Assembly (NCBI RefSeq): GCF_037038585.1
Contig: NC_092523.1
Location: 625,001-689,000 of the forward strand
Direction: 5' to 3'
Source of the DNA: Patagioenas fasciata
Taxonomy: Eukaryota; Chordata; Aves; Columbiformes; Columbidae
DNA: 64,000 bases
The notes beneath the pieces are model-generated. The model did no database searches. It was not told the DNA's origin and saw nothing but the letters and a program-made list of their open reading frames with translations. The translations under genes were made by a program, and so were the position numbers. This document shows positions 10,301-52,500 of the stretch, in pieces (positions within the stretch are counted from its first letter, which is position 1; each line of letters opens with the position of its first letter).

Positions 10301-13300
10301 TGGGTACAGCCCCGTCAGCAGCGGGACCCCATTGCCCCCACGCTGGCACCCCCCACACCACCCTGGGTGGCCCAACGCGCCGCCCCGCTTGCCTGGCATG
10401 ATGACCTCCGGGTAGCCCAGCTTGCGCGCCACCACCGTGCTGCGGTCCACCAGGTGGGGGTGGTCCTTCCGCACCTGGCTCAGGTCACCCCACAGCATCT
10501 TCAGGGACACCCAGAACCCTGCAGGGACAGAGGCGCCGTCCCCATGAAGCCACCAGCCTGGCTCGGGCTGTGCCACACGTGCCTCCCCTCGCCACCCCGT
10601 CCCGCTACGATCCCGCCGGCCGGGCAATCGGCACCATGAGCCCCGGCTGCGCCCAGGGCCCCCCGCAGCCCTCTTGGGTGACAGCGGACAGGAGCCGGGG
10701 GCAGCAGGAGGGGCCCAGGGCCGGTGAGGAGCCCCCAGACCCCGCGAGGAGCAACACGGGGGGCCCCAGCGTGGGGTCAGGGGCTGCCTGGGCCCCCAGC
10801 ACCAGCACCAGCACCAGCTGCAGGGAAATGCAGGATGTGCCGAGGGCTCTACCTTGTCCCTTGTGGTTGATGTCCTTCCCCTCCACTGCCTTCCTGATCA
10901 TATTGTGAAGAAAATCGTTGTCACCAGCTGCCCTGCAAACACCAGAGCAGGCGATTCGGAGGAGCTCACACACACGGGGACCCCACAGCTGCTCCCACGG
11001 TGACCCCACAGCTGCTCCCACGGGGACCCCACAGCTGCTCCCACGGGGACCCCACAGCTGCTCCCACGGCTGCCACCGACCCCAGCACAGGGACCCAGCA
11101 CAGGGACCCCAGCACAGTGATCCCAGCACAGTGACCCCAGCACGGGGACCCCAGCACAGGGACCCCAGCACGGGGACCCAGCACAGTGACCCCAGCACGG
11201 GGACCCCAGCACGGGGACCCCAGCATGGGGACCCCAGCAGGATGGCATCACAGAACCACAGCTGGTTTGGGCTGAAGGGACCTCCCCAGCTCCCCAGTGC
11301 CACCCCTGCCATGACAGGGACATCTTCACCAGCTCAGGGTGCTCAGAGCCCCGTCCAGCCTGGCCTGGGTTGTCTCCAGGGATGGTTCATCCATCACCTC
11401 TCTGGCCAACCTGGGCCAGGCTCTCACCACCCTCAGGGCAACAATTTCTTCCTCATGTCCAGCCTGAATCTCCCTCCTTTAGTTTAAACCATCACCCCTT
11501 GTCCTGTCACAACAGGCCCTGCTCAAAAGCCTGTCCCCATCTCTCTTATCAGCCCCTTTTAAGTCAGGAAAGGCTGCAATAAGGTGTCCCCGGAGCTTCT
11601 CTTCTCCAGCTGAACCCCCCAACTCTCAGCCCGTCCCCATCCACCACAGCCCGGGGACCCCAGCACCGTGTGCCCGAGGGGACAGAGCTCCACAGGGCTC
11701 CCGTGGCCCTGAGTGCGCCCCTGCCCACCAAAACACCTCCTCTGTGCTCTGGGGTCTGGACCTGGTGACACCGTGTCCCAGGGATCCGCGGGCCCTTGGA
11801 AAGCCACGTTTAAGGGAAAACCCTTTCTCTTTCATCCCAGTACATCCTGCCCCCCTTGCAGCTGATGTCCCCGTGCCAGCCAGGCCCATAGAGCACTGCG
11901 CCCCCCACCCAGCCCCCACCCCAGCGCCCTCCCCCGGGACTCACAGGTGCACGGGAATGAAGTGCTGCTTGTCCTCGTCGCTCTCGCACTTGCCCTTGGT
12001 GATGTCCGTGATGTCCATCACTGCGGCACAGAGGCGGCAGCATGGGGGAGCTGCCGGGGGCGCTGGCACCCCCAGCCCGGGCCCTTCGTGCCGAATCCTC
12101 CAGGGACCGGCACCCAGGACAGTTTTGTCCCACCCTGCAGCCACTGCTGTGCCCGCATCCCAGCTCTGACCCTGCTGTGCTCTGGTCTGTGCCCCGTGGG
12201 GGGTCATCCTGTCCCACTGAGACCCCTCTGCCACCCACAGACACTCCAAGCTGCTCGGGGCTTTTGGCAGGAGGAACCCGGCACCCACACAGCACCACGG
12301 TGATGGCCGTGCTGCCAGTGCGGGCTGGACCCGGCACCAGCCACAGCTCACCCACAGGGATGCTGCGGGGAGCTGCGGTAGCACCAGCCCCGGCACGGTG
12401 CGGGGTCCCGCTGCAGAGCACCCTCAGCAGCACCAGCCCCAGCACGGTGCGGGGTCCCACCACGGAGCACCCTCGGCAGCACCAGCCCCAGCACGGTGCG
12501 GGGTCCCACCGCGGAACACCCTCGGCAGCCCCAAGCCCACCCTGGCTCCCCCTCCTCAACCAGCACTTCCCTGGCTGCTGGGGACAGCACCCGTGTCCCT
12601 CCAGCTGAGCACCTCTGGGGAACGGCACAGACACGGTGCAGCCACCACCAAGACTGTCACCAGAGGTGACCTCAGAGCTCTGGGGCAGATTTGGGCCAAA
12701 ACAAGCCCTATCCAGAACCCTCCATCACCCATGGACGGGGGTTTGGTGCAGGACAGACAGGGGGTTCGGTGCAGGACAGACAGGTCACTGCAGAACAGGC
12801 ACCAGGACAGTCCCTCTGTCCCCTCCACAGGACCACGCTCAGCTCGGAGCCCAATCAGGTAACTTCTCTGTGGCTGAGGTCCCAGCGCACGCTAATTAGC
12901 CAAGTAAGATCAATTTCCCAGCATAGCCACCCGCTGGGGATCAATGCCCAGAGCAGGACCGGGGGCTGTGTGTCGGGCTGGGGACACGGGGCATCGAGCA
13001 CAGGGGACAGGGCAAATAGCCACGGCAGTGGGGTCGGGGTCTGTGTCGGGATGGGGGTGCCTGGCAGGGGCAGGAGCAGCCCTGAGCCCCCACACCCCAC
13101 GCAGGGAGCCCCTGAGCCCGGCGGCAGGAGGCGGGTGCTGGGTGCTGGGTGCTGGGTGCTGGGTGCTGGGTGCTGGGTGCTGGGTGCTGGTGCAGACCGC
13201 GGGTCCGTCCTCCGCACCCGCGCGGCCGCGCGCTCACCAGAGATGCCGAAGGGCCGCCGCAGCCCCGTGCTGAGCTTGCGGCTGAAGCTGTCCCGCAGGT

Positions 13301-16300
13301 CCATGCGCCCCACGCGGATGATCTGGCACACCAGGAACAGCCGCTCGCGCTTCAGGTCCGTGCTGCCCAGGTCCTGGGGGTCAGGGGCTGCGTGAGCCGG
13401 CGGCACCGCGTGCCACGTGCCTCTGCCAGCCCGGCAGCCGGAGCCCAAGGGACAGGGACAATGCTGGGGCTGGCGGGGACTGATGGCCCCACGGGGCAGC
13501 CAGCGGCAGGCAGCACGGCCGGGGGGACACGTCACCTGGGAGGGGACAGCTCTGACAGAGCGTGGGGCTCGGGGAGGCCACGCACCCCAGTTTGAGCCAC
13601 CCCATGGGAGCCGGGTCTCGCAGGGGCCACCCCTGCGCTGTGGCACGGGGTTGCGGCACAGGGCAGTGGCACAGGGCAGGGTCACGCCGCGGTGCACAGG
13701 GCCACGCCGCGGTGCACGGGGACGCGCGGCCGCCACCAGCAAGCGGGCAGGGGTCAGAAATGGGCGGGACCCGGGGGAGCTGGGCTGCGGGGGCTGGAAG
13801 TGCTGATGCTGCTCATTAGCATTGATTTTCCCAGCTCATCTGCATATCCATGGCTCCGCTTGGGCCGTCCTGAGGGTCAGCTCGGCTCTGCTGGCGCAGC
13901 GGGAAAATCGCTGGCTCAGCAGAGCTGCCTGCGCTGCCTGCGCCTGCTCCTGCCCGCGGCCAGCGCCCGAGCCGGCTGTGGGCAGGGACGGTGCAGAGAT
14001 GGGGGCACGGGCACCCCAACAGCCACACACACCCGGAGGGGGGGCTTTATGGGGCATCTCCACGGTAGGTGCCCCCATCCCAGTGCCGGCACCGGGGTCT
14101 GTGCCAGAGCTGCAGGGCTGGCTGCGCTGGGAACATGTGGGAAACAGGCAGCAGGGAGAAAGCAGTGGGCAGCAGCGGGGTTTGGCTGCTCGGGGGGCAC
14201 ATGGGCCGCGGCGAGGGCTGGGGGTCCTGTGCATGGTGCTGGATGCACCCGAAACGCTGGGGGCACGTCCGCGGGGAGCAGAACCAGGCAGCGCTGGGGC
14301 AGCGGCCCCCGGGGGCTGCGCTCACCGTGAAGACGGCCTTGAGGTTGTTGAGCAGCTCGATGTCCTGGGGGACGCCGGTGCTGGCCCAGCGGATCACGTA
14401 GTTCTCGCTGCGGGGGAGGCGAGGGGTGAGGAGCCACGGCGGGGCCCGGCGCCGCCACGGCAGAGCGGGAGCTCAGCGCGTCCCCGGGCCCCACGGGCAG
14501 CGGCCGCGGCCGGCGGGGAAACACAACGGGGCTGGAGGCTCCGCCACGGGCAGGGCGCTGCTCGGCCCCGGTTCACACACCCGGCCTCTGCCAGCTGCCC
14601 ACACGGACCCCTCGTCCCAGCGCTGGCCCCAGTGGTGACACAGGACTGGCGCGGCCCGGCCGTCCCGGCAGCGGGACACTGCCCGCCAGCCCTGCCCGCA
14701 GGACACGCAGCGCGCAGGACGCGCCAGCTCACGGGTCCTGTGCACGGGCCACGCTGCCCCGGTGGCACCCGTGGGCTGGCACGGGCTGAGCCGGCACCTG
14801 CCTGCCGCGGGCAGATCTGCGCAGGGCGGCACAGCACAGCGCGATGGGCTACGGGGTGTCGGGCGCACAGCACCCGGGCAGGACGAGCCGCAGGTGTCCC
14901 ATGGGACAGGGCTGTCAGCCACGGGTGTCCCACGGGACAGGGCTGTGAGCCACGGGTGTCCCACGGGACATGCACACCCTGCACACTGTGACAAACCCTC
15001 CCCTCCAGAGGAGAAAACCCCGCGGGAGGGACGAGCTTCTTCCCCTCGAGATGTGCTGAGCCGGGAGGGCAGGACGGACAGCCCAGGGCGGGCAGGACGG
15101 ACAGCCCAGGGCGGGCAGGACGGACAGCCCAGGGCGGGCAGGACGGACAGCCCAGGGCGGGCAGGACGGACAGCCCAGGGCGGGCAGGACGGACAGCCCA
15201 GGGCGGGCAGGGGCTACCGAGGGGCGTTCCCGCGCAGGGAGCCAGGACAGGGACGCTGGGGGGAGCAGCAGGACGGGCACCAGCCGAGCTGGGGCAGGGT
15301 CGGGGGGGTCTGGCCCCGCACCCGGGCCCACCTGATGATGCGCTGCTCGGCGGGGTCGTACAGCGCCATGAAGAGCTGCGCCTCCTCCCCGATGTTGCAG
15401 ACGAAGTTGCGCACGCAGAGGTAGAGGCTGTGGGACGGCGAGGCCGCCCAGCGGGTGCTGCCGCCCAGCGCGCTCTGCTGCGGGCTCTGCGCGCACGAGG
15501 CGGTTCAGCCCCATGGCACGGACCCACGGCACAGCCACGCGGGGGCAGCCGGCTCTGGGCGCGGGGGTCAGCGTGCCGGGGCAGCGCTGGCTCGCACCGT
15601 CTCCTCCTGGATGCGCTGCGTGACGGTCTGCGCGGCCCTCCGGTGCGCCTGGAACAGGCTGATGACGCTGGTACTGTCGGGGTCCAGGATGTTCTCGTCC
15701 TCGTCCCGCACCACCAGGTCCAGCGCCAGGATCCTGTGGAGGACAGGACAGGTGAGGCTGGGGCAGGGGACACGGGGCTGTGCACCCCAGGGGGACCCAC
15801 CGGCCCCGGTACAGGCTGGCACGGGGCCTGAGGGTGCAGGACAGACCCCAGGGGTCCCAGCAGAGCCGGGGCGAGGGGACACTGTCCTGTCCCAGCCAGG
15901 GCTTGCTGCCCACAGCCCTTGGCCAGATGGCTTTCACAGCCACCAGCTCTCACTGTCCCAGCCACCACAGGACAGCCAGCCAGCACAGTGGGGACACAGG
16001 GTGCCCCAGGGACACCCAGCCAGGGTGATGGTGACACAGGGACAGCCAGTCGGCAGGGACACCACAGCAGAGAGGCCAAGTGTCCCTCAGCACGGCGCAG
16101 CCTGTGCTGGGCTGCAGGTGCCCAGGCCCCCGTCCCGTCCCCACACTCACTTGTTGCCGTAGTCGATCTTGCCCGTCACCTCCTTCTTGAGCTGCAGGAG
16201 CTCGTCCTTGGGCAGGGTCCCCGAGAGCAGCTGCGAGCGCCGCTCCATCAGCTCGCACATCATCTGCTTCACCTGCCGGTACCGCTCCGCCTGCCCCGCC

Positions 16301-18718
16301 TGCGGGCGCTGCACCAGGTCACTGCGCGTCCCCCCGGCCCCCCCAGCGCCCGCATCCCCCCGGCCCTCACCACGTAGAGCTGCTTCCAGATGGCGGCCCA
16401 CTCGCGCAGCGTGGTGGTGATCTCCTGCACCATGGGCATCTCGGCAGGAACCAGGCTCTCCTCGGCCCTGGGGGGGCACGGGGAGCCCTGCAGCCCTGCA
16501 GTCCCCACGCTGGGGGCTGATGGGGCCACCCCCGTGCCCTGCGGTACCTACCCCCTGCGCTGCACCACGGCCGCCTTCAGGTGGATGAGCGAGGCCGGGA
16601 AGATGCCCTGGGGGAGCCGGAGCCCTCAGTGCCCGCAGGCTGGGCAGGACACGGCCCCTGGGGGGGCACGGCCAGGGGACCCCATCCTGGGACTGAGGGT
16701 CTCGGCCTGGCCACGCTGCAGCGCCCAGCGTGTCCCCAGCAGGGACAGGACAAGCCACCAGCTATCCCTGGGCCCCCCCGCACCCCAGTCCCCCTCACCT
16801 ACCCGGCCAGCCCTGTTCCGGAGCGAGTACCCGCGGTACCAGCCTGCCAGGGGAGGGACAGGGACAGGGACACGTCAGCCGCGCTCGGGGACGGCAGCCC
16901 GCGGCACGGCAGGGCTGGGTGCCCGCCGGCGGCGTGGCTGAGGGAGGGTGCCCAGCCCGGTGTCGGGGTGTAGCCGGGGCCCCCTTACCCTCGGAGGCTT
17001 GCAGGATGTGCACCGTCTCCCCGATCTGCAGCGGGAGGTGATGCTCGTGGGTGCGTGGGAAGTTCCACAGGGCTGCGGGAAGAGCCGGGAGCTGCGAGCC
17101 GGGGTCCCTCACCCAGACCCCGCACCCCGTGCCCTCTCACCCAGACCCCGCACTCCGTGCCCTTCTCGGGGCAGTGTGCCCCCCGGCAGCCTCCCCACAG
17201 GCAGCAGGGCCCCACAACCGCTATTGCTCAGCCCTGAGAGACGGTGCGGGGTCCCAGCCCCACAAACCCAGGGGGAGCTGGCAGGGGCTGCAGGGTGGCA
17301 GGGGGTGGCAGTGGCAGGGGGTGGCAGTGGCGGTGGCAGGGGCTGGCAGGGGGTGGCAGTGGCGGTGGCAGGGGCTGGCAGGGGGTGGCAGTGGGTGGCA
17401 GGGGGTGGCAGTGGCAGTGGCGGTGGGTGGCAGGGGGTGGCGGTGGCGGTGGCAGTGGCGGTGGCAGTGGCAGTGGCGGTGGGTGGCAGGGGGTGGCAGT
17501 GGTGGTGGCAGTGTCGGTGGGTGGCAGGGGGAGCCGGCAGGGGCGTGCAGGAGCTGGCTGGTGCGCAGACACTTCCTGCTGCGGCATGGGCTGCACCGGC
17601 CGCGCCGTGGTTAGTCCTGCTGCTGTTCTGGTCCCGGGGACAGGGACAGCTCTGTCTGCCGAAGCCAGCCCCAGCTCGGCCCAGGACTGGCTGCACCCCG
17701 TGCCTGGGACAGTCCCCCAGCCCTGCCGGCAGCCGGGGTCCCAGCGGGGACACTGCCTGTGCCCTGTGCCCAGCGCCAGCCCCTGCTGTGACACTCCCAG
17801 AGCCACACGGCTCCTCGAACCCCCCGTGTGGGCCCCAGCGCACCCCACAGCAGCAGGAGCCCTCGCTCCCGGGGCTGCCGGCAGCACAAGGGGGGGCGGG
17901 AAACAGCCCCTCAGAAACGGGAAAGGGTGCAGGGCTGCACGGGCCAGCGGGGGCACACGGGGGTGCTCGTATGGGGGATGCTCGTATGGGGGTGCTCAAA
18001 CGGGCCGGGGTCGGCACAGGACCCTGGGCTGGAGGTGCAGGGTTTGCCCAGGGCTTTGCCAGCCCCGATGCAGCGTCTGGGAGCGAAGCCCCAGCTGGGA
18101 CTGGGGGCACATTCCTGGGGTGGCTCTGAGCTAACTGTCCCTGCTAACGATCCCCGTTAACAAGCCAGCCAGCCCCTGGGGAGGCCCCTGCCCTTCAGCA
18201 GCCAGGCCTGGCCCAGGCCCACAGCTCGGGCGCCGGATCCTGCGCTGAGCACCTGCCCCAGCGCTCTGCCTCCCGCTCAGCCCCGCAGCTCCCAGCCCCA
18301 CCAGCACCAGCCATGCTCAGTGTGGTCCTGCTGACCCCTGCCGTGCTCAGCCCCGTGTCCCCTGGCCCACCTGTCCCCAGCCCTGCAGCCTCCGCCGCCA
18401 TCCCCATCGTCCCTGCGCCCACTGGACCCCCAGTACCAGCAGTGACAAGACCCAGCCCCTACCCTGCACCCCCTCACGTCGCCACCAGCACCCAGCCCAG
18501 CACCGTTCACCTGCAGCCCCCACCATCGCCCAGCCGCCAACATCCGCCCCACCACAGCCGCTGCCACGGGGCCACCGCAGCCACGGTCACCGTCAGCATC
18601 ACCCCAGCCGCCAGCACCATCCCGCCCACCGTGCACCCTCCGGGGAGCCCAGCGGCACCGCGCACTGGCACTCACCCACGCCATACTTCTCCTCCTTGGT
18701 GGGCAGCCACGGGGCCAT
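1399..18718 (-). CDS. DOCK-A subfamily Rac guanine-nucleotide exchange factor, DOCK2-like, 5' part (22 exons)
   Basis: Exons (high to low): 18718-18676, 17072-16989, 16843-16803, 16607-16552, 16467-16371, 16299-16151, 15733-15598, 15486-15332, 14407-14326, 13373-13238, 12020-11945, 10932-10853, 10518-10393, 10297-10173, 9397-9299, 8856-8784, 7233-7130, 4104-3915, 2791-2694, 2524-2435, 1885-1785, 1533-1399. They join in one frame for 2276 nt (759 codons). The start [14 protein letters not shown] resembles DOCK1/2 N-termini. An SH3 fold ([26 protein letters not shown]) covers about residues 12-65 and in this family binds ELMO. A DHR-1 (C2-like, phosphoinositide-binding) domain starts near residue 421 ([19 protein letters not shown]). 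Phrases such as [37 protein letters not shown] and [17 protein letters not shown] are closest to DOCK2. The catalytic DHR-2 domain would lie off the left edge. The exon ending at 10393 uses a GC donor. DOCK-A identity is firm; which paralog it is, is inferred. Confidence 0.93.
1543..1650. repeat. minisatellite, ~19-bp unit, about 5 copies
   Basis: Units alternate GGGACACACGGCCAGGGCT and GGGACACATGGACAGGGCT, in the DOCK intron just upstream of the exon at 1533-1399. Confidence 0.85.
4555..5020. repeat. minisatellite, 18-bp and 10-bp units, ~465 bp
   Basis: Tandem GACACGGGCAGGCAGCAG units with interspersed 10-bp GACACGGGCA units and GACACAGG variants, in the intron between DOCK exons 7130 and 4104. 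The recurring order of the two unit types shows a higher-order pattern. Confidence 0.95.
5515..5590. promoter_or_regulatory. low-GC island in a DOCK intron
   Basis: Locally AT-rich and non-repetitive. It contains CTCCTAATTCGCATTCC and GGTACAAAGATGAAATAGC. A candidate enhancer fragment; no direct evidence beyond composition and a TAATT core. Confidence 0.25.
6755..6965. promoter_or_regulatory. low-GC island in the same DOCK intron
   Basis: About 210 bases of AT-richer unique sequence with GCAAACAAACAC (forkhead-like), TTTAAGTTACC and AAACAAAACTCATCATTCGC, followed by GAGTCACGTGGAG with an E-box. It is flanked by GC-rich sequence and does not resemble CR1. Candidate regulatory element or old unrecognised repeat. 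Confidence 0.3.
7541..7785. repeat. minisatellite, 32-bp unit, 7-8 copies
   Basis: The unit contains GGGGCTGGCACAGCTGGGGA followed by CGGGCAGGGCGC, with minor variants, in the DOCK intron between exons 8784 and 7233. Confidence 0.95.
7964..8112. repeat. degenerate minisatellite, ~22-bp unit
   Basis: Repeated GGGATGCAGAGCAGAGGG-type units with substitutions, in the same intron as the 32-bp array. Confidence 0.8.
8276..8745. repeat. minisatellite, 15-bp unit, ~30 copies
   Basis: Tandem CAGCCCCGCTCCAGC with variants (CCTGCTCCAGC, CCCCCACAGC), filling ~470 bp immediately upstream of the DOCK exon at 8856-8784. It is the third array in this one intron. Confidence 0.95.
10976..11245. repeat. two adjacent minisatellites (22-bp unit, then ~15-bp unit)
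   Basis: Four copies of a 22-bp unit around CCCCACAGCTGCTCCCACGG (10976-11065), then about a dozen GGACCCCAGCACAG-type units to 11245. The array abuts a CR1 copy. Confidence 0.9.
11246..11640 (-). mobile_element. CR1 LINE 3' fragment
   Basis: Read on the plus strand it starts CACAGAACCACAGCTGGTTT and passes through the CR1 3'-end landmarks: CCTGCCATGACAGGGACATC, CCGTCCAGCCTGGCCT, GGGATGGTTCATCCATCACC, CACCCCTTGTCCTGTCAC and CTTCTCTTCTCCAGCTGAAC. This is the reverse complement of the CR1 3' region, so the element lies on the minus strand. It sits in a DOCK intron and is moderately diverged. Confidence 0.92.
12375..12525. repeat. minisatellite, ~49-bp unit, 3 copies
   Basis: Three near-identical units beginning CACCAGCCCCAGCACGGTGC, in the DOCK intron between exons 13238 and 12020. 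Confidence 0.9.
12880..12950. promoter_or_regulatory. TAATTAG-containing islet in a DOCK intron
   Basis: Contains GCTAATTAGCCAAG and AAGATCAATTTCCC within otherwise GC-rich intron. Candidate homeodomain-bound element, weak support. Confidence 0.25.
13133..13190. repeat. 7-bp microsatellite (GGGTGCT)n, 8 copies
   Basis: Perfect heptamer array in a DOCK intron about 45 bp from the exon at 13373-13238, close to the splice donor side. Confidence 0.97.
13800..13870. promoter_or_regulatory. ATTAGCATTGATTTTCC islet in a DOCK intron
   Basis: Low-GC unique stretch with CTCATTAGCATTGATTTTCC and CATCTGCATATCCATGG (octamer-like core and a CATATCC). Candidate enhancer, support from composition only. Confidence 0.25.
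14893..14968. repeat. 34-bp tandem repeat, ~2.5 copies
   Basis: Copies of GGTGTCCCACGGGACAGGGC followed by TGTGAGCCACG, in a DOCK intron. Confidence 0.9.
15072..15212. repeat. minisatellite, 23-bp unit, 6 copies
   Basis: Almost perfect tandem units of GGACGGACAGCCCAGGGCGG plus GCA, in the same intron as the 34-bp repeat, ~120 bp from the exon at 15486-15332. Confidence 0.95.
17290..17535. repeat. G-rich (GGTGGCAGTGGC)n array, ~245 bp
   Basis: Hexamer-based GGTGGC/AGTGGC array with GGCAGGGG interruptions in intron 1 of the DOCK gene. Runs of G on the plus strand could form quadruplexes; that is inference. Confidence 0.95.
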
Positions 18719-21446: not shown

Positions 21447-27228
<5,782 letters not shown>

Positions 27229-28916: not shown

Positions 28917-29118
28917 TCACAGCGTCACAGAACGTCCTGAGCTGGAAGGACCCACAGGATCACGGAGTCCAGCTCCTGTCCCTGCACAGGACACCCCACA
29001 GGTCACCCCGTGTGTCTGAGGACATTGTCCAGTTTCTTCTTGAACACTGTCAGGTTGGGCCGTGACACCTCCCTGGGAGCCTGGTCAGTGTCCAGCACCT
29101 CTGGGGGAAGAACCCCGG
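28917..29118 (-). mobile_element. CR1 LINE 3' fragment, different subtype
   Basis: Plus-strand text runs from TCACAGAACGTCCTGAGCTG through GGATCACGGAGTCCAGCTCC, GACATTGTCCAGTTTCTTCT and CCTCCCTGGGAGCCTGGTCA to GGGGGAAGAACC. This is the reverse complement of a CR1 3' end of another subfamily than the copies at 11.2 and 48 kb. It lies ~140 bp upstream of the p40-like promoter. Confidence 0.85.
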
Positions 29119-29256: not shown

Positions 29257-29382
29257 TTCTGAGAACTGTGATGCTGCTGTGGTTTGGCTTCACCTTGGGG
29301 CAGCCCCGCAGGGTCCCGCTCTGCTATATACCCGGCCCCAGCGTGGCCGAGCCCCCGGAGCAGCGCACACCGCGGCGGAGAG
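29257..29382 (+). promoter_or_regulatory. promoter and non-coding exon 1 of the IL-12 p40-like gene
   Basis: A TATA box (TATATA, 29325-29330) is followed by a probable non-coding exon of ~28 bp ending at 29382 before GTAGGC. Upstream lie TTCTGAGAA (29257-29265), a STAT/GAS match (TTCNNNGAA), and CTGTGGTTT (RUNX core) near 29277. A TATA box plus non-coding first exon also fits the layout of IL12B genes. Inducible expression is inferred from the motifs, not shown. Confidence 0.55.
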
Positions 29383-29669: not shown

Positions 29670-31833
29670 ATGCTGGTGCTGCTGGGGCTGGTGCTGTGCC
29701 TTGTGTCTGCAGATGCCCTGACCGCCTTCCCCCCAAAGTGTGAGTCCTGCCCGCCTGAGCGCTGTGGGGGCCTCGGGGGGGGATGTCCCAGGGGCGGGGG
29801 CTGTGGGACCTGCACAGCAGCAGGAGGGAGCACCCACATCCCTCTGACATGGGGCAACATGAGCCTAGGTGGGGGCTGCACTCCTGGTGGGGGTTAGAGG
29901 ACAGGCAGGAGGGTGATGGGGACACGGGGTGACAGAGCAGGGGATGGGTGTGGGGGGATGGGCAGGGTGTGGATGTCCGGGGGGTGATGGCAACGGTGGT
30001 CAGAGCAGGGCTGGGGACCGTGGGTCAGGATGGATGCAGTGGGTCAGGACAAGGGGCTCCCAGCCCCGTTGTGGCAGGGTTGGGCTGCCCACCCCACAGC
30101 CCGCCTGACCCCAGACTCTGATCTCCAGTTCAAGTGGGGAAACTGAACGGGGACGTGGTGGTGAGATGCAACACGTCGGTGCAGCACGTGAGCTGGACGC
30201 AGAATGGGGAGCCCGAGCCCATGGCCGAGGTGGTGGCCGAGGGCCAGACCCTCACCATCCTCGGCGTGGACCTGCCGGCTGCCGGCAACTACAGCTGCTG
30301 GGCTGGCCCCGTCCTGCTGGACAGCACCTACGTGGTGGTCGGCGGCACCGGTACGTGGGGCGGGTGTGGGGGGGCACGGCCAGGCAGGGGAAGCAGGGGG
30401 TGACGGGGGTGCAGGAGAAGCAGGGGGTGACGGGGGTGCAGGGGAAGCAGGGGGTGACGGGGGTGCAGGGGAAGCAGGCGGTGACGAGGGGTGCAGGGGC
30501 AGGCTGGGGACCGGGAGGTGCTCGTGCAGCCGCGGACGTTGGTGCCCAGCCCGCGGGGCTGTGGGGACGCGCCGGGCAGGGCTGGGGAGAGCGCAGGTGT
30601 GGGGCAGCCACGCCTGAGCCATACGGGGAGGGGGCACCTCTCCCGGCCCGTGCAGCCCCCCGAGCCACCAACCCCCTCAGGCAAGGAGGGGATGAACGTG
30701 TCCTGCCAGGCTGAGTCCTACCGCGGCTCCTTCCACTGCACCTGGACCGGACCCCGCTCCGCCGTCTTCCGCGCCCGCCTCACGCGCAGGTGGGTGTCCC
30801 AGGGACCCCCCTCGCCCTGGCCCGTGAGCACCCAGCCCTCACGCCCGCCTCCCCCCACAGCGACGGCTCCCTGGGGCAGTGGGTGCCGGCGGCCGGGCGC
30901 TGGGGCCGGTTCAGCGCCAGCCTGGCCGATCCATCCTTCTGCCCCTTCGCCGAGGAGCTGCGCCCCATGGAGCTGCAGCTGGAGGGGCTCTCGGACACCT
31001 CCTACCTCAACTTCTCCTTCCACTTCTTCGTCCGCGACATCGGTGAGCTCACCCGGCGGCGCTGGGGCCCGGGGGGCTCTGGGGGCCCTGTGGGAGGGTT
31101 TGTCCCCGCGCTGACCCCACCGTGCCCGCAGTGCGGCCGGACCCGCCGCAGGAGCTGACCGTGCAGTGGCGAGGGGAGCAGCTCCACCTCACCTGGGCTC
31201 CCCCCGCCTCCTGGCCGCTCCCCAAGTCCTACTTCGCTCTGCTCTACCGGCTGCAGTACGAGCTCCGCAACGGCACCCAGGTAACCGCGGGACGCCCGAG
31301 CCCTGCGCACTCTGCCCTGGCCCTCGCTCCGCTGCGCCCGCCCGGCCCCAGACTGGGCTCTTCCCGCTGCCAGGGGGACCACTGGGAACAGGGGCTCACG
31401 GGGGGCTCAGCAATGTCCCCCCCTGCCTCCCCACTACATGCTGCTCCCCTTGGGGTGCTGCACGGTCACCCCTGGCTGTCACCTCTGCTCCCCGCTCCAG
31501 CGCTGCCCGCACCCAGCAGCATCGCTGCCCGAGCCGGGGAGGTTCCCGTGTCTGCCGACCCTGAGCCCCGGCACTGAGCTCTGGTCCTGCCCTGTTCCCC
31601 ATCCCCACCGCCTCACCCCCGCAGCCCTGGTGCCTCCTGCCCCCCCAGGCTGTGACCTGCCCCGCTTGCAGGTGGACAGGTACGTGGAGGGCACGGAGGA
31701 GCTGCGGCTGCAGGGGCGGGTGCGGCGGGTGCGCATCAGCTGCCAGGACCCCTACGCCAACCCCGCCTGGAGCCCCTGGAGCACCTGGCAGGACGTCGGT
31801 GCAGTTCGGCAGCCCCGGCTCCGAGCGCGGTGA
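29670..31833 (+). CDS. interleukin-12 p40-like soluble cytokine subunit (IL12B paralog)
   Basis: Coding exons: 29670-29739, 30129-30350, 30681-30789, 30861-31042, 31132-31280, 31672-31833; all GT-AG, one frame, 297 aa (human IL12B 328). A hydrophobic signal peptide (residues 1-~16) precedes an Ig domain with the Cys37/Cys80 pair, then two fibronectin-III cytokine-receptor domains: VSCQAESYRGSFHCTW (Cys106/Cys117), FFVRDIVRPDPPQELTVQW, and WSPWS at 277-281. Cys161 in SFCPFAEELRP aligns with the p40 cysteine that bonds p35/p19, so dimer formation looks preserved. The second domain-2 disulfide of IL12B (VTC...VEC) is absent. Five N-glycosylation sequons are present (first N38, N77, N103). No transmembrane segment, so secreted. 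The Ig domain excludes EBI3, which lacks one. True IL12B is expected on another chromosome; this is a paralog. Confidence 0.9.
30386..30490. repeat. 27-bp tandem repeat, ~4 copies, in a p40-like intron
   Basis: Units of AGCAGGGGGTGACGGGGGTG plus CAGGGGA, just downstream of the exon ending at 30350. Confidence 0.93.
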
Positions 31834-32903: not shown

Positions 32904-33775
32904 TCACGGCGGGGCCAGGCAGCCCAGGCGCAGCTCCTCGCCCTCCAACATCTCCCTGCAAGAGACAGGCCCGGGCTGAGCCCCGCGCCCCGCCCGCCCC
33001 GCCGCCCCCCCCGCGTACCGGTACGCGGCGATCTCCGCCTCCAGCGCCATCCGCAGCCGCAGCAGCGCCGGGTACTCCCGCAGGCACCGGGCCATCTCCG
33101 CCTCCGCCGCGCCGATCTCCCGCTCCAGCTCCGCCACCCGCTCCTGCCGCCGTCCGTCAGCACCGCCCGGGACCCCGGCCCGACCCCTGCCCCGCACGGA
33201 CACCCGGAGCCCCCAGCCCCGGCCCGGCCCCCGAACCCCCTCCCAAGCCCCATCCCGACCCCCTGCCGCACCTGAACCTCCCTCCCCAGCCCCATTCCGA
33301 CCCGTGCCCAGCACGGACCCCCGGCCCACTTGAACCCCCCTCCGCAGATCCTGCCTGACCCCGTTCCGCAACCCCACCCGGACCCTCCTCCTCAGCCCCA
33401 TCCTGACTCCCTTCCTCCCGTTCCCCAGCCCTCCGGGCATCCGAGCCCCGCACCACGCCCCCCCCAGCGCCTGGGCTCCCCCTCCAACCCCAGATCTCCG
33501 CCTCCTCCCACAGCCCAGGCACCTGCCCTTTCCCAGCCCGCCTGCCCTTTCCCAGCCCGCCCGGCGCCCCGCACCTGGTACTTGGCGAGCTCCCCGCTGC
33601 GCCGGTCCCGCAGCCCCTGCAGCTGCCGGTGCAGCGCGCCCACGGCCCCGCGCAGCGCCTCCACCTCGGCCGCGCGGGCGCGGAGCAGCCGCCGGTACCC
33701 GGCAGCCTCGGCCCGGGCGCGCAGCACCGCCTCGCCGCCCCGCCGGCACCGGGGCCAGCCCTCGGCCGCGCTCAT
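32904..33775 (-). CDS. short neurofilament-type intermediate filament protein, coil 2 only
   Basis: Exons 33775-33575, 33143-33019 and 32955-32904 give 125 aa. The product matches coil 2 of type IV filaments. A first block ([27 protein letters not shown]) leads to [27 protein letters not shown] and the rod end [10 protein letters not shown], then only CLAPP and stop. The middle exon is exactly 125 bp and both introns fall where I recall those of NEFL (after the residue before D-T-I-N-K, and inside AAYR), so this is a neurofilament/internexin-type gene. Head, coil 1 and tail are missing; the initiator Met sits where coil 2 begins, and a CpG promoter with CCAAT box lies directly upstream. Whether it polymerises is unknown. 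It could also be a longer gene using an undetected upstream exon. Confidence 0.75.
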
Positions 33776-35022: not shown

Positions 35023-38000
35023 TCACACCACGGAGGCCACCCCTGAGACGGACGTCACCTTGTTGTCCTCAGCCCAGGGCTGCAGGTTCTGCAGGGCATA
35101 GAGGGAGGAGTTGTGCATGCAGAGCGGGTCCTGGGGCAGCGGCTGGCTCAGGCTCTTCTGGAAAGCCTCCTGCTGCAGGTGCAGCATCAGGCGGTTGGCC
35201 TGCTGGCGCTCAGCCTCGCGCTCCTCTGCCGTCTGCCTCCTGCCAGGAACACAGCCCATCCAGCGCTGCCCCTCCGGCTGCCGGCACCGCTGTGCACCAG
35301 ACAGGCACCGTCCCAGAGCCTCCACCCGCCGACCGTCCCTCCTCCGGCACCACCGCGCCTCATCCAGCCGGGCACGGGGGATGCCGTGGGGAACGGGCAC
35401 AGGGGATGCCATAGGGATGGGCACAGCGGGATGCCATGGGGATGGGCACAGCGGGATGCCATGGGGACGGGCACAGCGGGATGCCATGGGGACGGGCACA
35501 GGGGGATGCCATGGGGACGGGCACAGCGGGATGCCATGGGGATGGGCACAGCGGGATGCCATGGGGACGGGCACAGGGGGATGCCATGGGGACGGGCACA
35601 GGGGGATGCCGTGGGGAACGGGCACAGGGGATGCCATAGGGATGGGCACAGCGGGATGCCATGGGGATGGGCACAGCGGGATGCCATGGGGACGGGCACA
35701 GCGGGATGCCATGGGGACGGGCACAGGGGGATGCCATGGGGACGGGCACAGGGGGATGCCATGGGGACGGGCACAGCGGGATGCCATGGGGACGGGCACA
35801 GCGGGATGCCATGGGGACGGGCACCAGCCCAGCCTCTCCCGAGGGCGGCAGCCATGGGGAGCAGTGGCTGCTGGAGGGGGCAGCAGGTCAGAGCTGTGGG
35901 GGCTGCAGCAGCCGCTCCAGGCCCAGCTCCGTTACCTCCACTTGGTGCGGCGGTTCTGGAACCAGGTCTTGACCTGGGCATCCGTCATCTTGAGGGCCTT
36001 GGCCAGGGTGGCCCGCTCGGCCGAGGCCAGGTACTTCTGCCGGTGGAAGCGCTTCTCCAGCTCGCAGATCTGCACCCGGCTGAAGGAGGTCCGCGGCTTC
36101 TTCCGCTTGGGCGGCGTGCGGTTCTGGTAGGGGTGCCCGATCCGCCGGGTCGCCGCGAAGGGCGACAGCGCGGCTGTGGGCAGAGGCGGGGTGAGGGGCT
36201 GCTCGGGGAGCCGTGGGAGAGACAGGGAGGCCCTGTCACCGCTGCTCCGCACAGGTAGGGGCCGGGCAGGGTCCCGGTTGAGCCCAGGGCCTGGGGGGAT
36301 GCTTGGGGCCATGGGGACAGTGAGCTCTGTAGGGGCCGTGGGGACAGCGAGCTCCAGGAAGGCCACCAGCACTGCCTGGCAGAGAGGAGGGGAGGAGGAG
36401 ACCCCAAGTCACCCCACCTGCTCCCAGAGCCCAGAGGCACGCGGGGCAGCTCAAGACGTGGCCAATCCTAAGCCCACGGCCACAGCCCAACTGCTCCCCT
36501 GGCCCGGTGGCTACGGGCTGGGGCCAGCGGGGCAGCCAGCAGCACAACCTCACCCTTCGCTGCATGCCGAGCCCTGTCACAGCCCCAGAGGAGCCTCCGC
36601 GGCTCTGCAGTGACTTCCCAGCCCTCCTGGGGAGGGGACAGGATCCCAGAAGCCATCAGGAGGCAGTCGGCATCTCCTTCCATGTGCCGGCAGCGGCCGA
36701 TGTGGCCGCCACCAGCTGCCCAGGGGCTGGGAACGGGCTGTCCCCGCATGGCCAGTGTGACCAGAGACAGCGAGTCTGGTGTGCCGCGTGCAGACACGGA
36801 CACAGCCAGAGCCACCGGGAGTGTCGGGGCAGCAAAGCGGCGCAGGCGAAGGCAAGAGCTCGGTGGGGTGCAGCACCCAGTTCCTGCTCCCCTCCTGCTC
36901 CCATGGCACCCACAGCCAAGCCACAGCCCTGCAGCACCACGGCCCTCACCAGCGCCAGCACCACACGGGCAGGGCTGCTCATGGGGCCGCCATGGGGCCG
37001 CAATGGGGCCACAGGGACATGGGCAGACCCTGCAGTGGCCCCAGGGACACCCCGGTGCCCAGCAGACCCCCCTTCCCGCCAGCACCCGCAGGCAGCGCGG
37101 GCAGGGAGCCAGGCTGCCCGCCGGCGGGGGCGGACGTGGTTGATGCAGGTGGAGCCGCGCAGTCGGGGGACAGAGGCCCCCGCGCCTCCTCCTCATGCGG
37201 GGCGGCCCCTCGCTGACAACAGATGCCGACAGCCCACAGACCACCCCAAGGCCAACGGTGCTGAGTGATGGCCACGCTGGGAGACCCCGTACCGGGGAGG
37301 GGCCGCCTCGTCCACCCACCACTGGCGCCAGGCAGGAGATGGGGACGTCACCCGCCACCCTGTGAGGGACGGTGCTTCGTCACCACCGGGATGGCGGGGT
37401 GGGCCGGGAGGCAAACCTGGCTCTGCTGGTGCCCAGGCTGGGCCCCCACAGCCCCCACATCCCACATGGCCCCAGTGTCCCCAGCGCTCAGCCCCCAGCC
37501 CCGTGTGGCCCCAGCCTTGTCCCCACATGGAGCCACGCACTGCGGACGTGGCGGTGCCGCCATCTTGGGAAGCAGCTGAGCTAAGCTGAGCCAGGCCAGA
37601 GCTCCCCGGCCCCCGCCCGGCACACAGGCCCCACACCAGCATCGCAGCCGCAGCACCACACACCTTCTGCTCCGGGCTGCAGCAGTCAGCATCCCCACCC
37701 CAGCACTGGGTGCTCCAGCCCCCACTACGAGCACTCAGCTCCTGGCCCCACTGGCAGCACCGGGACCCTGCACCACCTCCCTGACACCTGCACCATCAGC
37801 TGCCCTTCCCAGCCCCAACCCCAGCCCAGCATCTCCCATAGCACCTGCACCCCATGCCCGGTGCTTGCCCCTGCACAGTGGGTCTCTGAGTCCCATCCCC
37901 AGGCAGCCCACAGACACCCGCAGCACCTGCCCCATCCCCACGGGCACACGGGACAGGGGTATCTGCTCCCCATTCCCAGTCCCACACACAGATGGGTTTT

Positions 38001-38871
38001 GCCCCGCAACCCCACCGTGAGTCCCGCGGGTGGGATGGAGCCGACAGCCGCTGCCCTCGGGCCCCAGGAAGGGACCAGACACGGCGTAGAGTCCGAGGCC
38101 AGAGCGCGGCGGGACCGCTCGGGCGCCACTTGGAGTCGGACCCCGGCCCGTCCGCTGCCCGTGGCCGCCGGGAGACAGAGCGGAACCGCGGCGGAGCTGC
38201 CGGTGGCCGCACCAGCCCCGAGCTGCTCCCGGCGGGCCCCGACGGCGGCCGCGTCCCGCGGCGGCGAGAGCCCGGCCCGGCCCGGCGGGACCCGGAGGAG
38301 CGGGGCAGCCGCGGGCGAGGACTCCGCGCTGCGGGAACCGGCGGAGCGCACGGTGCCCGGCCAACCTCGCCCGGGCCCCGCGGGTGACGCGGCCCCGCTC
38401 CGCGCCCGCCGCGCCGCACCGACGGAGCCAGCGGAGCCGCCGGCAATCGTCGGTAGCCGTCCCGCCGCGCTCACCTGAGAGCCGGTCCTTGGCGATGCGG
38501 CGCGTCGTCTCCATCCAGGGGAAGGTGAGCCCCGAGAGCCCGGGCACCGGCGGCGGCGGGGCGGGCGGCGCGGCGGGCGCGGGCCGGTGCGCCGGGACGC
38601 GGATGACCCCGGCGGGCGGCGCGGCGGGCGCGGGGGTCACGTTGACGCTCACGTTCATGCTCATGTTGAGGTTGTAGGAGCCGAGGGAGCAGGCGGGGCC
38701 GTACCCGCCGCCGTAGAGCCCGTAGTCGGGCTCCCCCGCCGCCCGGCCCGGTCCCGCGCCGCCGCCCGCGGGCTCGGGTCCGCCGAGGATCTGGTCGATG
38801 CCGAAGCTGATGGGCTCGTGGGGCGCGGGGCCCTGGCCGCCGCCCTCCCGCGCCAGCGCCGCCACCTCCAT
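35023..38871 (-). CDS. TLX2: TLX2, NKL-class homeobox transcription factor (T-cell leukemia homeobox 2, HOX11L1)
   Basis: Exons 38871-38475, 36173-35936 and 35239-35023 encode 283 aa (human TLX2 284). An Eh1-like repressor motif [12 protein letters not shown] lies at 18-29, VIRVPAHRP is mid-protein, and the PBX-contact motif FPWM is at 117-120. The homeodomain (~156-215) carries the TLX-specific threonine in [13 protein letters not shown]. The tail ends SVSGVASVV, as in TLX2 rather than TLX1 (VASACE) or TLX3 (VTSLV). Parts of the homeodomain ([16 protein letters not shown]) look like TLX3/TLX1, so orthology rests on the tail and on its place between DQX1 and PCGF1. In mammals it acts in enteric and autonomic neuron development. 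Intron 1 is ~2.3 kb; intron 2 is mostly a minisatellite. Confidence 0.95.
35372..35828. repeat. minisatellite, 25-bp unit, ~18 copies, in TLX2 intron 2
   Basis: Unit GGGATGCCATGGGGACGGGC plus ACAGC, filling about two thirds of the 696-bp intron. A variant block recurs exactly 225 bp (9 units) apart, at 35381 and 35606, showing a higher-order duplication. Confidence 0.97.
36174..38474. other. TLX2 intron 1
   Basis: About 2.3 kb of GC-rich sequence without an additional exon or recognisable mobile element. Confidence 0.6.
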
Positions 38872-49550: not shown

Positions 49551-52500
49551 ATGGCGTCGCCTCCTCAGGGGGGCCCGATGGCGATCGCCATGCGGCTGCG
49601 GAACCAGCTCCAGGCCGTCTACAAGATGGACCCGCTCCGGAACGAGGCGAGCGGCGGCGGCGGCGGCCGGGCCGGTGCATGCGTGGGCGGAAGAGGCCGC
49701 CGCGCCGCTGCTCGGGGGGCGCCGGGGCCGCGCAGGCGCTGTTCGCCCGCCCCGCGCATGCGCCGGGCCGCCCACGCCCCGGGAGGGCGGGGCAGCGGGG
49801 GAGGGGCGGGGCCAGGGGCGGGGCGCGCGCAGAGGGGCGCGGCCAGGTGTGAGGGGCGGGGCGCAGGTGAGGGCGGGGCCAGGCACTGGGGGCGGGGCCA
49901 GGGGCAGGGTGTGGCACAGCGGATTTAAGCCCTGTCCTGGCCGGGGAACGGGCTTTGTGGGCCGGGCCGGGTCGGGCTGGGCTGGGCTGGGCTGGGCTGA
50001 GCTGAGCTGAGCTGAGCTGAGCTGGGCTGGGCTGGCTCGGCTCTGTGAGGCTGTCGGTGCCAGGCAGCCCCACCCCCGCCGACGCTGGGCACCGAAGCAG
50101 AGGGGGAATTGGCCACCAGCCCTGTCCCCCTGCCCCGTCACAGTGGCAGCCCCGCTCGGGGCCGCAGGGCCGGGCCGCGGGGTGAGGCTGGGTGTGGGTA
50201 CCGGTGCGGGGGGGCTCTGAGCCGCTGTCCCACAAGCCATGTCTGCGAGGGGTCCCTCCGCCCGTGCTGGGTGGGAGCTGCCCCCAGCCCCGTGTCCCCT
50301 GCCGTGCTGCCCATGGGGCACCTTCCCCAGTGTTCTGGAGGTTCCTGCTGACTGTGGGGCAGGCAGGGGCCCTGTGGGGCAGGCAGGGGCCCTGTGGGGC
50401 AGGCAGGGGCTGTGTGGGGCAGGCGGGGGCTGTGTGGGGGTGAGAGCCCGAGCAGCGGGGCCGTGCGGGGTGCCCACAGGTGCCAGCCTGGCGGGTGGGG
50501 ACCAGGTGACGGTGGCATGTCTCTGCAGGAGGAGGTGAAGGTGAAGATGAAAGAGCTGAATGAGCACATCGTGTGCTGCCTGTGCGCTGGGTACTTCATT
50601 GACGCCACCACCATCACCGAGTGCCTGCACACCTGTGAGTCCCCGCCTGCTGGGGCAGCTGCCTGGTGGCTCCATCGCCGCGGGGTCCCCAGGGTGTCCT
50701 GGCGGAGCTGCCCGTCCCCACCGGCGGGTCAGCGCTGCCCCGGGACCGGGGCTCCTGTCTGGGGGGCCAAGGGGAATGTGTCCCCTGGTCAGCGCTGGTG
50801 TCCGGGGCTGTGGGGCTGTGCCCCCCCCAGGCCCCTGACACCCCCCTCTGGCTGCAGTCTGCAAGAGCTGCATCGTCAAGTACCTGCAGACCAGCAAGTA
50901 CTGCCCCATGTGCAACACCAAGATCCACGAGACGCAGCCGCTGCTCAACCTCAAGCTGGACCGCGTCATGCAGGACATCGTCTACAAGCTGGTGCCCGGC
51001 CTGCAGGAGAGTGAGTGTCCCGGGGCCGGGGTCGGGTGTCCCACGTCACCGGGGTCCTGCGGAGGAGCCGGGAAGGGCCCAGGGCAGGGGCAGGGGAAGG
51101 GGAAGGAATTGGAGATTTTTGGGAGGTACCTCACTGTGGGGTGTGGGAGACTGCCCGTGGGTCTTCAAAACGCTGCTGACCAGGTCTGTGGTGGCTACTA
51201 AACCTGGCAGGGGGCACAGCTTAGTGTGCCAAACTGGCTGTAGAGGGAAAGGCGGGACAAACGGCCTCCAGGCCTGGCAGCAAGGGCCAGGGGACCGCGG
51301 GGACCGTACCCGGGAAGCACATGGGGCCGCTCGGGGATGGGGAGCGGAGGGGCGTGCTCTGTGCTGGTGCCGCAGTTTGGAGGGTCCGGGTGTGGGGACC
51401 CGCTGGAGGCTCTGGCTGTGCCGGGGCTCCGCGCCTTTCCCTGGGCGGTGCCGGCGGGGGAGCGGCTGCCGGATGGGGAACGGAGCGGGGAGGTGGGTGC
51501 TGCGCCAGGGCTCAGCACTGTGGGGCCGGAGCTGCGTGAGCGGCGTCCCTGGGGCCGGGCGCTCCGTGGCGGCGCGGTGAACCGGCGGCGGTGAACGCAA
51601 AGCAGCACGCGGGGGGGCAGCCCCGCGCCGCACGCTCGGGATTTGCCACTGTCACTCAGGACGGGGACGGCGCTGGGGACGCCTCTCTGGAAATGTCACA
51701 CCGCCACACGGGGCGGGGGCCTGGGCTGGATGGGGGGCACAGCGACATGCAGCGTGGGCCCTGGACCCCACCATGCAGCGGAGAGGGGGGAAGTGGGGAA
51801 GGTGTGAGGGCGACAGCATCGGGGACGTGTCTGTGTGGGCTGGGACAGGGACTGGGGACCCCCTGCAGCAGGGGTCGGTGGAGCCCCCGGGGTACGGAGG
51901 AGGACGGGGAAGGAGGGTCTGGTTTCTGGCAGCACGAGCTCCGCTATGCTCAGGGCAGCCCGGCCCTGCCTCTGGGTGCTGGGGAGCACGGGGGGCGTCC
52001 CTGAGCAGCACCGGCCTCTCCTCCGCAGGCGAAGAGAAGAGGATCCGAGAGTTCTACCAGTCCCGCGGCCTCGACCGGGTGACGCAGCCCAGCGGCGAGG
52101 GTGGGCGCGGGGACCCTGCGGGGCCTGGGGCCGACAGCCGGGCCGAGCCGTGGGGTCTCACTGTGGCAATCAGGCAGTGCCACGGTGCCAGCAAGGCAGC
52201 CATGGGCTGACTCCTGCCCCCTCCCCTGGTTTCCCCAGACACGGTTGGGGGTGACCCCATGGGGCTGCCCTACAGCACCTTCGATCACTCCCGCGCCCAC
52301 TACTTCCGCTATGACGAGCACGTCTCGCTGTGCCTGGAGAAGCAGAGGTGAGCGCGGGCCCGGCTGCGGGACAGGGAGGGGTGGGGGGGACCAGCATTGC
52401 TGCGTCCCCTGGCCCCTGCAGAGGACATGGCTGAGCTGGGGGGTCCTGCTGCCCCTCTGGAGCTGCCCCAGCCCTGTCCCCCGAGGCCGCAGCGTTCATG

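Follow-up and report, generated by a model that had tools for sequence, protein, structure and literature searches.

Whether a bird may carry more than one p40, the subunit upon which both IL-12 and IL-23 rest in steering Th1/Th17 immunity, is the question raised by a gene in Patagioenas fasciata. The window, by which we mean the whole stretch of DNA analysed, comprises 64,000 nt (NC_092523.1, 625,001-689,000; this contig is labelled C4), and at 29670-31833 on its plus strand lies an intact p40-like gene of six coding exons, which encodes 297 aa with no internal stop (Table 1). The clean six-exon gene described in the first-pass annotation is borne out both by this uninterrupted frame and by the introns, which are GT-AG throughout and have phases 1,1,2,1,0. 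Because a splice acceptor ends directly before the ATG, a non-coding first exon presumably precedes the coding ones. The GC contents of the coding sequence at codon positions 1, 2, and 3 are 0.668/0.503/0.919, a spread of 0.416, as compared to a mean of 0.075 (sd 0.050, maximum 0.352) among 651 window pieces of 894 nt, a background that itself includes coding pieces. An Rfam search gave no match, and a single palindromic NF-kB-like match at 29415 was taken as uninformative. A decaying pseudogene could be argued from the loss of one disulfide in domain D2, but this reading is very improbable for a gene having six exons, intact splice sites, no stop, strong codon periodicity, and an intact pairing motif.

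Table 1. Features of the window (positions are those of the 64,000-nt stretch)
Feature	Position	Strand	Basis and remarks
DOCK-A gene, 5' part (DOCK1/2/5 family; fourth in genome)	1399..18718	-	exon prediction; paralogon linkage marker
DEAH-type helicase gene, read as DQX1	21447..27225	+	HA2_N, HA2_C, OB_NTP_bind above cut-offs
Candidate TATA box (TATATA)	29325..29330	+	pattern match; upstream of the presumed non-coding first exon
p40-like gene, coding exon 1	29670..29739	+	signal peptide judged by eye (MLVLLGLVLCLVSADA...); phase 1 at the exon end
p40-like gene, coding exon 2	30129..30350	+	Ig-like domain D1, Cys37 and Cys80
p40-like gene, coding exon 3	30681..30789	+	FnIII domain D2, first half, Cys106 and Cys117
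p40-like gene, coding exon 4	30861..31042	+	D2, second half: CPFAEE with Cys161 (= human C177), sequon NFS at 184, FFVRDI
p40-like gene, coding exon 5	31132..31280	+	FnIII domain D3, first half: RPDPP, SYF
p40-like gene, coding exon 6	31672..31833	+	D3, second half: CQDPY, WSPWS, then stop
TLX2 homeobox gene	35023..38871	-	exon prediction; Homeodomain 66.7 bits
PCGF1	50523..53836	+	best PDB match PCGF1, 4.7e-52; RAWUL 25.9 bits, below cut-off 33.5

Several searches place the encoded protein among the p40 subunits. It matches the Pfam family IL12p40_C (PF10420) with an E-value of 1.4e-9 (38.8 bits, cut-off 25), while its Ig_3 score of 28.7 bits falls slightly below the cut-off of 30 and none of the Pfam fn3 families gave a match; thus, the Ig and FnIII domain calls rest mainly upon alignment with p40. 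With that basis, and with the signal peptide recognized by eye, the originally annotated plan of signal peptide, Ig domain, two FnIII domains, and WSPWS holds, the last of these being directly present. In a PDB search, the best 13 of the 45 sequences found at E<=1 were all IL12B (9.7e-25 to 2.1e-22), followed by EBI3 (6.2e-11), CNTFR (3.5e-10), the prolactin receptor (3.9e-5), and IL6R (6.9e-5). CRLF1 was not among these 45, even though the PDB contains it (8d7h_A); both IL6R and CRLF1 were compared with the window protein by PDB score only. When the window protein was used to scan viral and prokaryotic contigs, 30 and 101 pattern matches, respectively, were obtained and no relative emerged. 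As far as sequence can tell, the window gene is a member of the IL12B/p40 family by descent.

A search of the whole genome for PF10420 returned three matches at two loci, which are the window gene and an ordinary IL12B on contig C18 (11.44 Mb). In the unspliced genome, the window gene is a single-exon match of 24.6 bits, slightly below the cut-off of 25. The C18 gene encodes 315 aa that are 44.6% identical to human p40, and its product shares 30.6% identity with the window protein. Both genes have the same five intron phases, although equal phases may be general to the cytokine-receptor family, and in both the acceptor stands immediately before the ATG. Further features that the window protein shares with IL12B of this genome and with human and mouse p40 are the Ig domain and two FnIII domains, the Cys177-type cysteine within CP.AEE, FF(I/V)RDI, SYF, and an N-glycosylation sequon at N200. 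It differs from IL12B in having Leu for F82, a shorter D1-D2 linker, and an extra Cys268, and in lacking the final Cys305. There is also no Trp ahead of the first Ig cysteine of D1.

Three further identities are conceivable for such a protein, namely an ordinary IL12B, an EBI3, or a soluble receptor of the CRLF1/CNTFR type at a new place, since much of the domain plan is common to all of these and the window protein is almost as similar to CNTFR (25.2% identity) and IL11RA (27.3%) as to human IL12B (28.0%). CNTFR, IL11RA, IL6R, and CRLF1 share the arrangement of Ig, FnIII, and FnIII, while EBI3, the beta chain of IL-27/IL-35, is likewise secreted, belongs to the IL-12 family, and has PDPP and a pair of FnIII domains. 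However, the CPxAEE stretch and SYF, both found in the window protein, are p40-only in our alignment; the EBI3 rows lack both the Ig domain and the CPxAEE cysteine, whereas in CNTFR and IL11RA the second D2 disulfide is retained and the p40 motifs are missing. The tree likewise separates these proteins. It held eight sequences, comprising the window protein, bird and mammal IL12B, EBI3, IL11RA, and CNTFR, with CRLF1 and the fish p40a/b/c outside its scope. The window protein grouped with IL12B against EBI3, IL11RA, and CNTFR with support of 99.9/100 in the full alignment and 99.8/100 in the trimmed one (245 columns), and its placement with any of the three was rejected (AU p <=0.0004 full, <=0.0009 trimmed; for EBI3 alone, 0.00035 and 0.00086). 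A position inside EBI3 or CRLF1, which the first-pass annotation had named as fatal to its proposal, therefore fails for EBI3 by the AU test and for CRLF1 by the PDB search only, and the other case that it named, an ordinary IL12B with no second gene, fails by the separate IL12B on C18. The probability left to these identities is negligible.

The age of the gene is a separate matter. The window protein branched outside of bird plus mammal IL12B with support of 95.9/96 (full) and 93.4/93 (trimmed). Joining it to mammalian IL12B alone gave AU p values of 0.045 and 0.065, respectively. A younger copy of IL12B, made only in birds or sauropsids and evolving rapidly in a GC-rich region, would be in line with its long branch (0.95 substitutions per site) and its GC3 of 0.92, and a bird-only duplication survives the SH test (p 0.285 full, 0.26 trimmed). 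Against this stand the branching order itself, the AU test of the same bird-only duplication (p 0.046 full, 0.028 trimmed), and the presence of TLX2 and DOCK-A beside the window gene and of TLX and DOCK2 on the IL12B contig, as a single-gene copy would not carry such neighbours; we consider the younger copy quite improbable. The tree suggests, not strongly, a branching before the bird-mammal split of IL12B.

The neighbouring genes bear further upon this point. The previously annotated TLX2 and DOCK-A neighbours are both real, and their counterparts occur on C18 of the same genome, where IL12B at 11.44 Mb is linked, not adjacent, to a TLX3-like gene (14.94 Mb) and DOCK2 (15.83-15.84 Mb). Contig C11 carries DOCK1 and a TLX gene, and C33 carries DOCK5. 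The three nearest TLX-type homeobox exons are on C4, C18, and C11; the exon in the window is 94% and 92% similar to the closest two loci elsewhere in the genome, and its gene is named TLX2 because of its neighbours. An LBX2-like homeobox is located 8.6 kb beyond the window, while an LBX1-like homeobox lies beside the TLX gene of C11. The name DQX1 for the window helicase is partly our assumption. It is helped by human TLX2 being flanked by DQX1, according to the accessible part of PMC2446394, which also finds, independently, that the closer pair is formed by genes at the Lbx2/Tlx2 locus and at the former Lbx3/Tlx3 locus, with Dock2 placed at Tlx3.

The DOCK genes on C11, C18, and C33 are 95.3% (DOCK1), 84.7% (DOCK2), and 85.8% (DOCK5) identical to their human orthologues, and the window DOCK is at most 66.1% identical to any of these three. 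Over the same 152 residues, its identity is 71.7% to DOCK1, 69.1% to DOCK2, and 64.5% to DOCK5. A DOCK tree, whose rows include a small number of uncertain residues at exon ends, grouped it with DOCK2 at moderate support (94.5/91), and a grouping with DOCK1 was not rejected (AU p 0.087); by the SH test, neither the DOCK1 grouping, the DOCK5 grouping (0.53), nor a late copy of the genome's own DOCK2 (0.064) was rejected. Naming the window DOCK as DOCK5, from a match of 838.6 bits with a 656-aa query, was discarded, as DOCK1, 2, and 5 of this genome all reside on other contigs; it should be noted that the PDB ranking behind that name drew upon a DOCK2 chain with masked stretches and only a fragment of DOCK1. 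There were also weaker DOCK matches on C13 and C1 (40-52%), which were taken for DOCK3/DOCK4.

Other ohnologs accompany the window gene in a paralogous block. The linkage of DOCK, TLX, and IL12B within one genome supports the duplication-era paralog proposed at first, and the tree does so more weakly. The gene is most likely an intact IL12B paralog from the early vertebrate (2R) genome duplications, one that has most likely been retained in the lineage of this bird and is not known in human. Its membership in the p40 family together with an old age is very probable, and the fuller account, in which a whole-genome-duplication twin of IL12B serves as a putative heterodimer beta chain with a changed receptor contact, is probable.

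In both the alignment and the PDB match, Cys161 of SFCPFAEE aligns with the cysteine of human SACPAAEE, which is C177. E181, Y246, Y292, and the N200 sequon are kept among the p40-only columns, and Y114 and D290 are kept as well, the latter two being also common to EBI3, CNTFR, and IL11RA; we take Y114, E181, Y246, D290, and Y292 to be residues facing p35/p19. In human p40, C177 bonds Cys54 of p19, as given in the accessible part of PMC5566574, and the alignment agrees with the initial assignment of Cys161 as the counterpart of this interchain cysteine. Equally correct was the observation that the VTC/VEC pair (C148-C171, the second D2 disulfide) is gone, as both cysteines are absent here and present in the IL12B of this genome, human, and mouse. 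This loss is no bar to descent and marks the window protein as divergent. The Trp that grips IL-12Rb1 (W37) occurs in the IL12B of this genome, whereas the window protein lacks it. According to the available text of PMC8571081, mouse p40 requires W37 for IL-12Rb1, and mouse cytokines whose p40 carries D36K/W37K/T38K still fold and retain binding to IL-23R or IL-12Rb2, but neither bind IL-12Rb1 nor signal. The absence of this Trp speaks against a simple copy of IL-12 or IL-23, and it appears less likely that the window protein works upon IL-12Rb1 in the manner of the p40 of IL-12/IL-23.

Because partner-side residues are among those kept, we propose that the window protein would be secreted and serve as beta chain in a heterodimeric cytokine, with Cys161 joining it to a four-helix alpha chain. 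Candidate partners are detectable in this genome, as IL12A (p35) matches occur on C12 (38.2 and 28.3 bits) and an IL23A (p19) match occurs on C35 (27.3 bits, cut-off 27), with one more below the cut-off. Since the needed Trp is gone, the standard IL-12Rb1 grip would be absent and the receptor would be met differently. The product could either add to the IL-12 family a heterodimer that uses a changed receptor or act as a competitor tying up p35/p19, and birds may have an additional heterodimer of this family. Covalent pairing is slightly favoured, while for changed receptor use we regard the chances as evenly balanced. A pairing cysteine is no guarantee, as grass carp p40a, which was modelled as pairing-capable, formed homodimers, heterodimers being obtained with p40b only, in the account of PMC8481787 available. 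A purely soluble antagonist would bind p35/p19 or homodimerize via Cys161 without engaging IL-12Rb1 and would thereby damp IL-12/IL-23. The kept cysteine and missing Trp fit such a sink, as does the behaviour of the mouse triple mutant described above (PMC8571081), but a new receptor is equally compatible with them and a pure sink conserved for so long would presumably be unusual; we judge this reading unlikely.

Extra p40 genes have precedents outside of birds. The teleost p40a, p40b, and p40c are such genes, and some act with p35 paralogs as distinct IL-12 forms, as reported in the accessible portions of PMC4929537, PMC10165394, and PMC8481787. The p40c of common carp and grass carp is described as lacking the interchain cysteine (PMC2946394, PMC8481787, same limitation), whereas the window protein has it. 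In the portions available, the authors of PMC8481787 tie the fish p40 copies to the teleost duplication, and a survey of 405 species (PMC12162339), which counts two human beta subunits in the IL-12 family, p40 and EBI3, names ray-finned fish for duplication of IL12B and EBI3. Bird studies of the IL-12 family, as far as their available text goes, work with one p40, and among the literature matches listed, judged by titles and the starts of abstracts, none was devoted to a second p40 of birds; the window gene may be present in RefSeq/Ensembl as an unnamed IL12B-like entry. If our reading is true, a second ancient bird p40 would alter the interpretation of IL-12-family biology for poultry and wild birds alike, and it would raise the question of whether some of the fish copies predate the teleost duplication. 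It would also be a natural experiment, i.e. a p40 with the partner cysteine and without the known IL-12Rb1 hot spot.

More tentatively, and as something we hold to be doubtful, birds and perhaps other non-mammals could have a third beta chain besides p40 and EBI3, which would take p35, p19, or a different alpha chain as its partner and signal without IL-12Rb1, in an axis lost in mammals and with a D1 that retained an older, receptor-like N-terminus. The start of D1 in the window protein, FQVGKLNGDV, resembles VQYERLGSDV of CNTFR. At 9 of 29 columns that are invariant in the outgroups, the window protein has the outgroup residue, and it keeps 17 of the 62 IL12B-only columns. These kept columns are divided as 2/19 in D1, a domain that EBI3 lacks, and 15/43 in D2-D3, a difference that is not significant (Fisher p 0.065).

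The p40-like gene of the window is intact, with GT-AG boundaries at all five of its introns and intron phases of 1,1,2,1,0. Its coding sequence has a GC content of 0.668/0.503/0.919 at codon positions 1/2/3 and its introns one of 0.73, the codon-position spread of 0.416 being larger than in any of 651 equal-length pieces of the window, coding pieces included (maximum 0.352). Alignment to p40 gives the protein a signal peptide, an Ig domain (D1), two FnIII domains (D2 and D3), and a WSPWS motif. In Pfam, IL12p40_C was the only family above its cut-off (38.8 vs 25), Ig_3 scored 28.7 (under its cut-off of 30), and the search returned no fn3 family match. Past the signal peptide, cysteines are found at positions 37, 80, 106, 117, 161, and 268, and the protein has five sequons.

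Coordinates of the features discussed (L040 is the locus past the window end; C4 is the contig of the window, which spans C4:625001-689000, and C11, C18, and C33 are other contigs of the same genome)
Feature	Location	Strand	Remarks
p40-like gene	window 29670-31833	+	6 exons, 297 aa
Ordinary IL12B	C18, 11450040 to 11442601	-	6 exons, 315 aa
Fourth DOCK-A gene	window 1399-18718	-	distinct from C11 DOCK1, C18 DOCK2, and C33 DOCK5
LBX2-like homeobox	L040 8572-8775 (C4, 8.6 kb beyond window end)		82% to an LBX homeodomain probe
Intermediate-filament-like coil 2 end, in pieces	window 32907-33832	-	between p40-like gene and TLX2
25-bp minisatellite	window 35369-35824		18.3 copies (94% matches), flanked by two predicted TLX2 exons
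27-bp minisatellite	window 30384-30499		4.3 copies; within second intron of p40-like gene
Presumed avian CR1 element-like stretch	window ~28917-29110		upstream of p40-like gene; judged by eye

The first-pass annotation had proposed an extra p40-like subunit, to be given up if the protein fell inside EBI3 or CRLF1. Among the 45 PDB sequences matching the protein at E<=1, the top 13 are all IL12B (best 9.7e-25), followed by EBI3 (6.2e-11), CNTFR (3.5e-10), the prolactin receptor (3.9e-5), and IL6R (6.9e-5), while CRLF1 is absent from this set. In a tree of eight sequences (the window protein; IL12B of the same genome, human, and mouse; human and mouse EBI3; human IL11RA; and human CNTFR), the protein groups with IL12B (99.9/100; 99.8/100 on 245 trimmed columns) and branches outside the bird plus mammal IL12B clade (95.9/96; 93.4/93 trimmed). 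Placement with EBI3, IL11RA, or CNTFR is rejected (AU p <=0.0004 full, <=0.0009 trimmed). For placement with bird IL12B, the AU p values are 0.046 (full) and 0.028 (trimmed) and the SH p values 0.285 and 0.26; for placement with mammalian IL12B, AU gives 0.045 and 0.065. From these results, we regard membership of the p40 family as firm, whereas an age for the gene derived from sequence alone is not.

It was also conceivable that this is simply the ordinary IL12B, with no second gene elsewhere. Searching the whole 1.454-Gb genome with the protein yielded seven matches, namely its own six exons and C18:11445004-11445141, where a separate IL12B could be assembled, which rules this out. The C18 product is 44.6% identical to human p40 (285 columns) and 30.6% to the window protein (248 columns), and the two genes share their intron phases as well as a splice acceptor directly before the ATG. 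A genome search with PF10420 gave three matches at these two loci only; that at the window gene scored 24.6 bits, just below the cut-off of 25, because exons were read one by one, and one at the C18 gene contains a TAA because the match extends beyond the end of the exon, which is itself open. D3 of the C18 protein lacks human C278 and has a cysteine after PDPPQ, and its D3 disulfide may differ from the human one. This IL12B resembles that of chicken, and contig sizes of 81.5 (C4), 43.4 (C11), 20.8 (C18), and 7.6 Mb (C33) would fit an avian genome.

Three DOCK-A (DOCK1/2/5 family) genes are known in humans. The genome search for DOCK found four loci with strong matches; weaker matches at one locus each on C13 and C1 were taken for DOCK3/DOCK4. 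Over 190 residues, the C11, C18, and C33 genes are 95.3%, 84.7%, and 85.8% identical to human DOCK1, DOCK2, and DOCK5, respectively. None of six rows, DOCK1/2/5 of human and of the genome itself, exceeds 66.1% identity to the window DOCK (192 residues for the human rows). It groups with DOCK2 against DOCK1 plus DOCK5 (94.5/91), and in 97% of 500 bootstraps of a four-taxon tree. A late origin by duplication of the genome's DOCK2, DOCK1, or DOCK5 is rejected by AU (p <=0.0013 in the trees tried), with SH p values of 0.064, 0.016, and 0.0002, respectively. Of the alternative groupings, AU rejects that with DOCK5 (p 0.017) and leaves that with DOCK1 standing (p 0.087), and SH rejects neither. The TLX2 exon has 87 matches in the genome, two of them near-identical (C18, 14.94 Mb, 94%; C11, 28.96 Mb, 92%) and the remainder all <=60%. 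C18 carries IL12B (11.44 Mb), its TLX gene, and DOCK2 (15.84 Mb), C11 has an LBX1-like homeobox ~35 kb from its TLX gene, and C4 combines TLX2, the DOCK-A gene, and the p40-like gene. The names TLX3 and TLX1 for the C18 and C11 TLX genes, respectively, are provisional and go by linkage. Wotton and colleagues describe four Lbx/Tlx paralogons, in which the genes at the Lbx2 and former Lbx3 loci are the closer pair and Dock2 sits at Tlx3 (PMC2446394). The p40 pair fits this scheme as set out there, and the term Il12 is absent from the main text of that paper. The filament-like stretch matched Filament at 1.4e-9 (38.5 bits, below the cut-off of 40) and has nearly no tail before its stop.

Residue retention was scored over 62 columns in which the three IL12B share a residue that none of the EBI3, CNTFR, and IL11RA rows has. 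The window protein retains 17 of these (human mature numbering: T52, A63, G116, C177, P178, A180, E181, E182, E187, Y198, N200, F206, R208, D209, S245, Y246, and Y292), and, out of 29 columns where the outgroups all agree on a residue that IL12B does not have, it shows the outgroup residue in 9. Y114 and D290 are also present, being common to all rows; together with E181, Y246, and Y292, we take them to line the contact with p35 (IL12A) or p19 (IL23A). Retention amounts to 2/19 columns in D1 and 15/43 in D2-D3 (Fisher p 0.065), and the stronger retention in D2-D3 is thus suggestive only. In human p40, the bond to Cys54 of p19 is made by C177 (PMC5566574). In D1, mouse p40 W37 is required for IL-12Rb1, and D36K/W37K/T38K triple-mutant p40 cytokines still bound the second receptor (PMC8571081). 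The matching Trp is present in the C18 IL12B; the window protein has no Trp upstream of the first cysteine of its Ig domain, and F82 is replaced by Leu.

The simplest reading is that the gene probably encodes a secreted beta chain, which is predicted to couple still to a four-helix chain and would either engage its receptor in another way or fail to engage it. Possible partners exist in the genome, with IL12A matched on C12 (38.2 and 28.3 bits) and IL23A on C35 (27.3 bits, just above the cut-off of 27, with a second match below it). We count against the predicted pairing that grass carp p40a, modelled as capable of cysteine pairing, yet formed homodimers, heterodimers arising from p40b only (PMC8481787). 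The beta subunits described for human are p40 and EBI3, with IL12B duplication named for ray-finned fish (PMC12162339), and among the papers listed, judged by title and start of abstract, none deals with a second avian p40. In fish, which carry several p40 genes, activity differs between p35/p40 pairs (PMC4929537, PMC10165394). The p40c of common carp and grass carp lacks the interchain cysteine (PMC2946394, PMC8481787), and the window protein, which has it, is unlike carp p40c in this respect.
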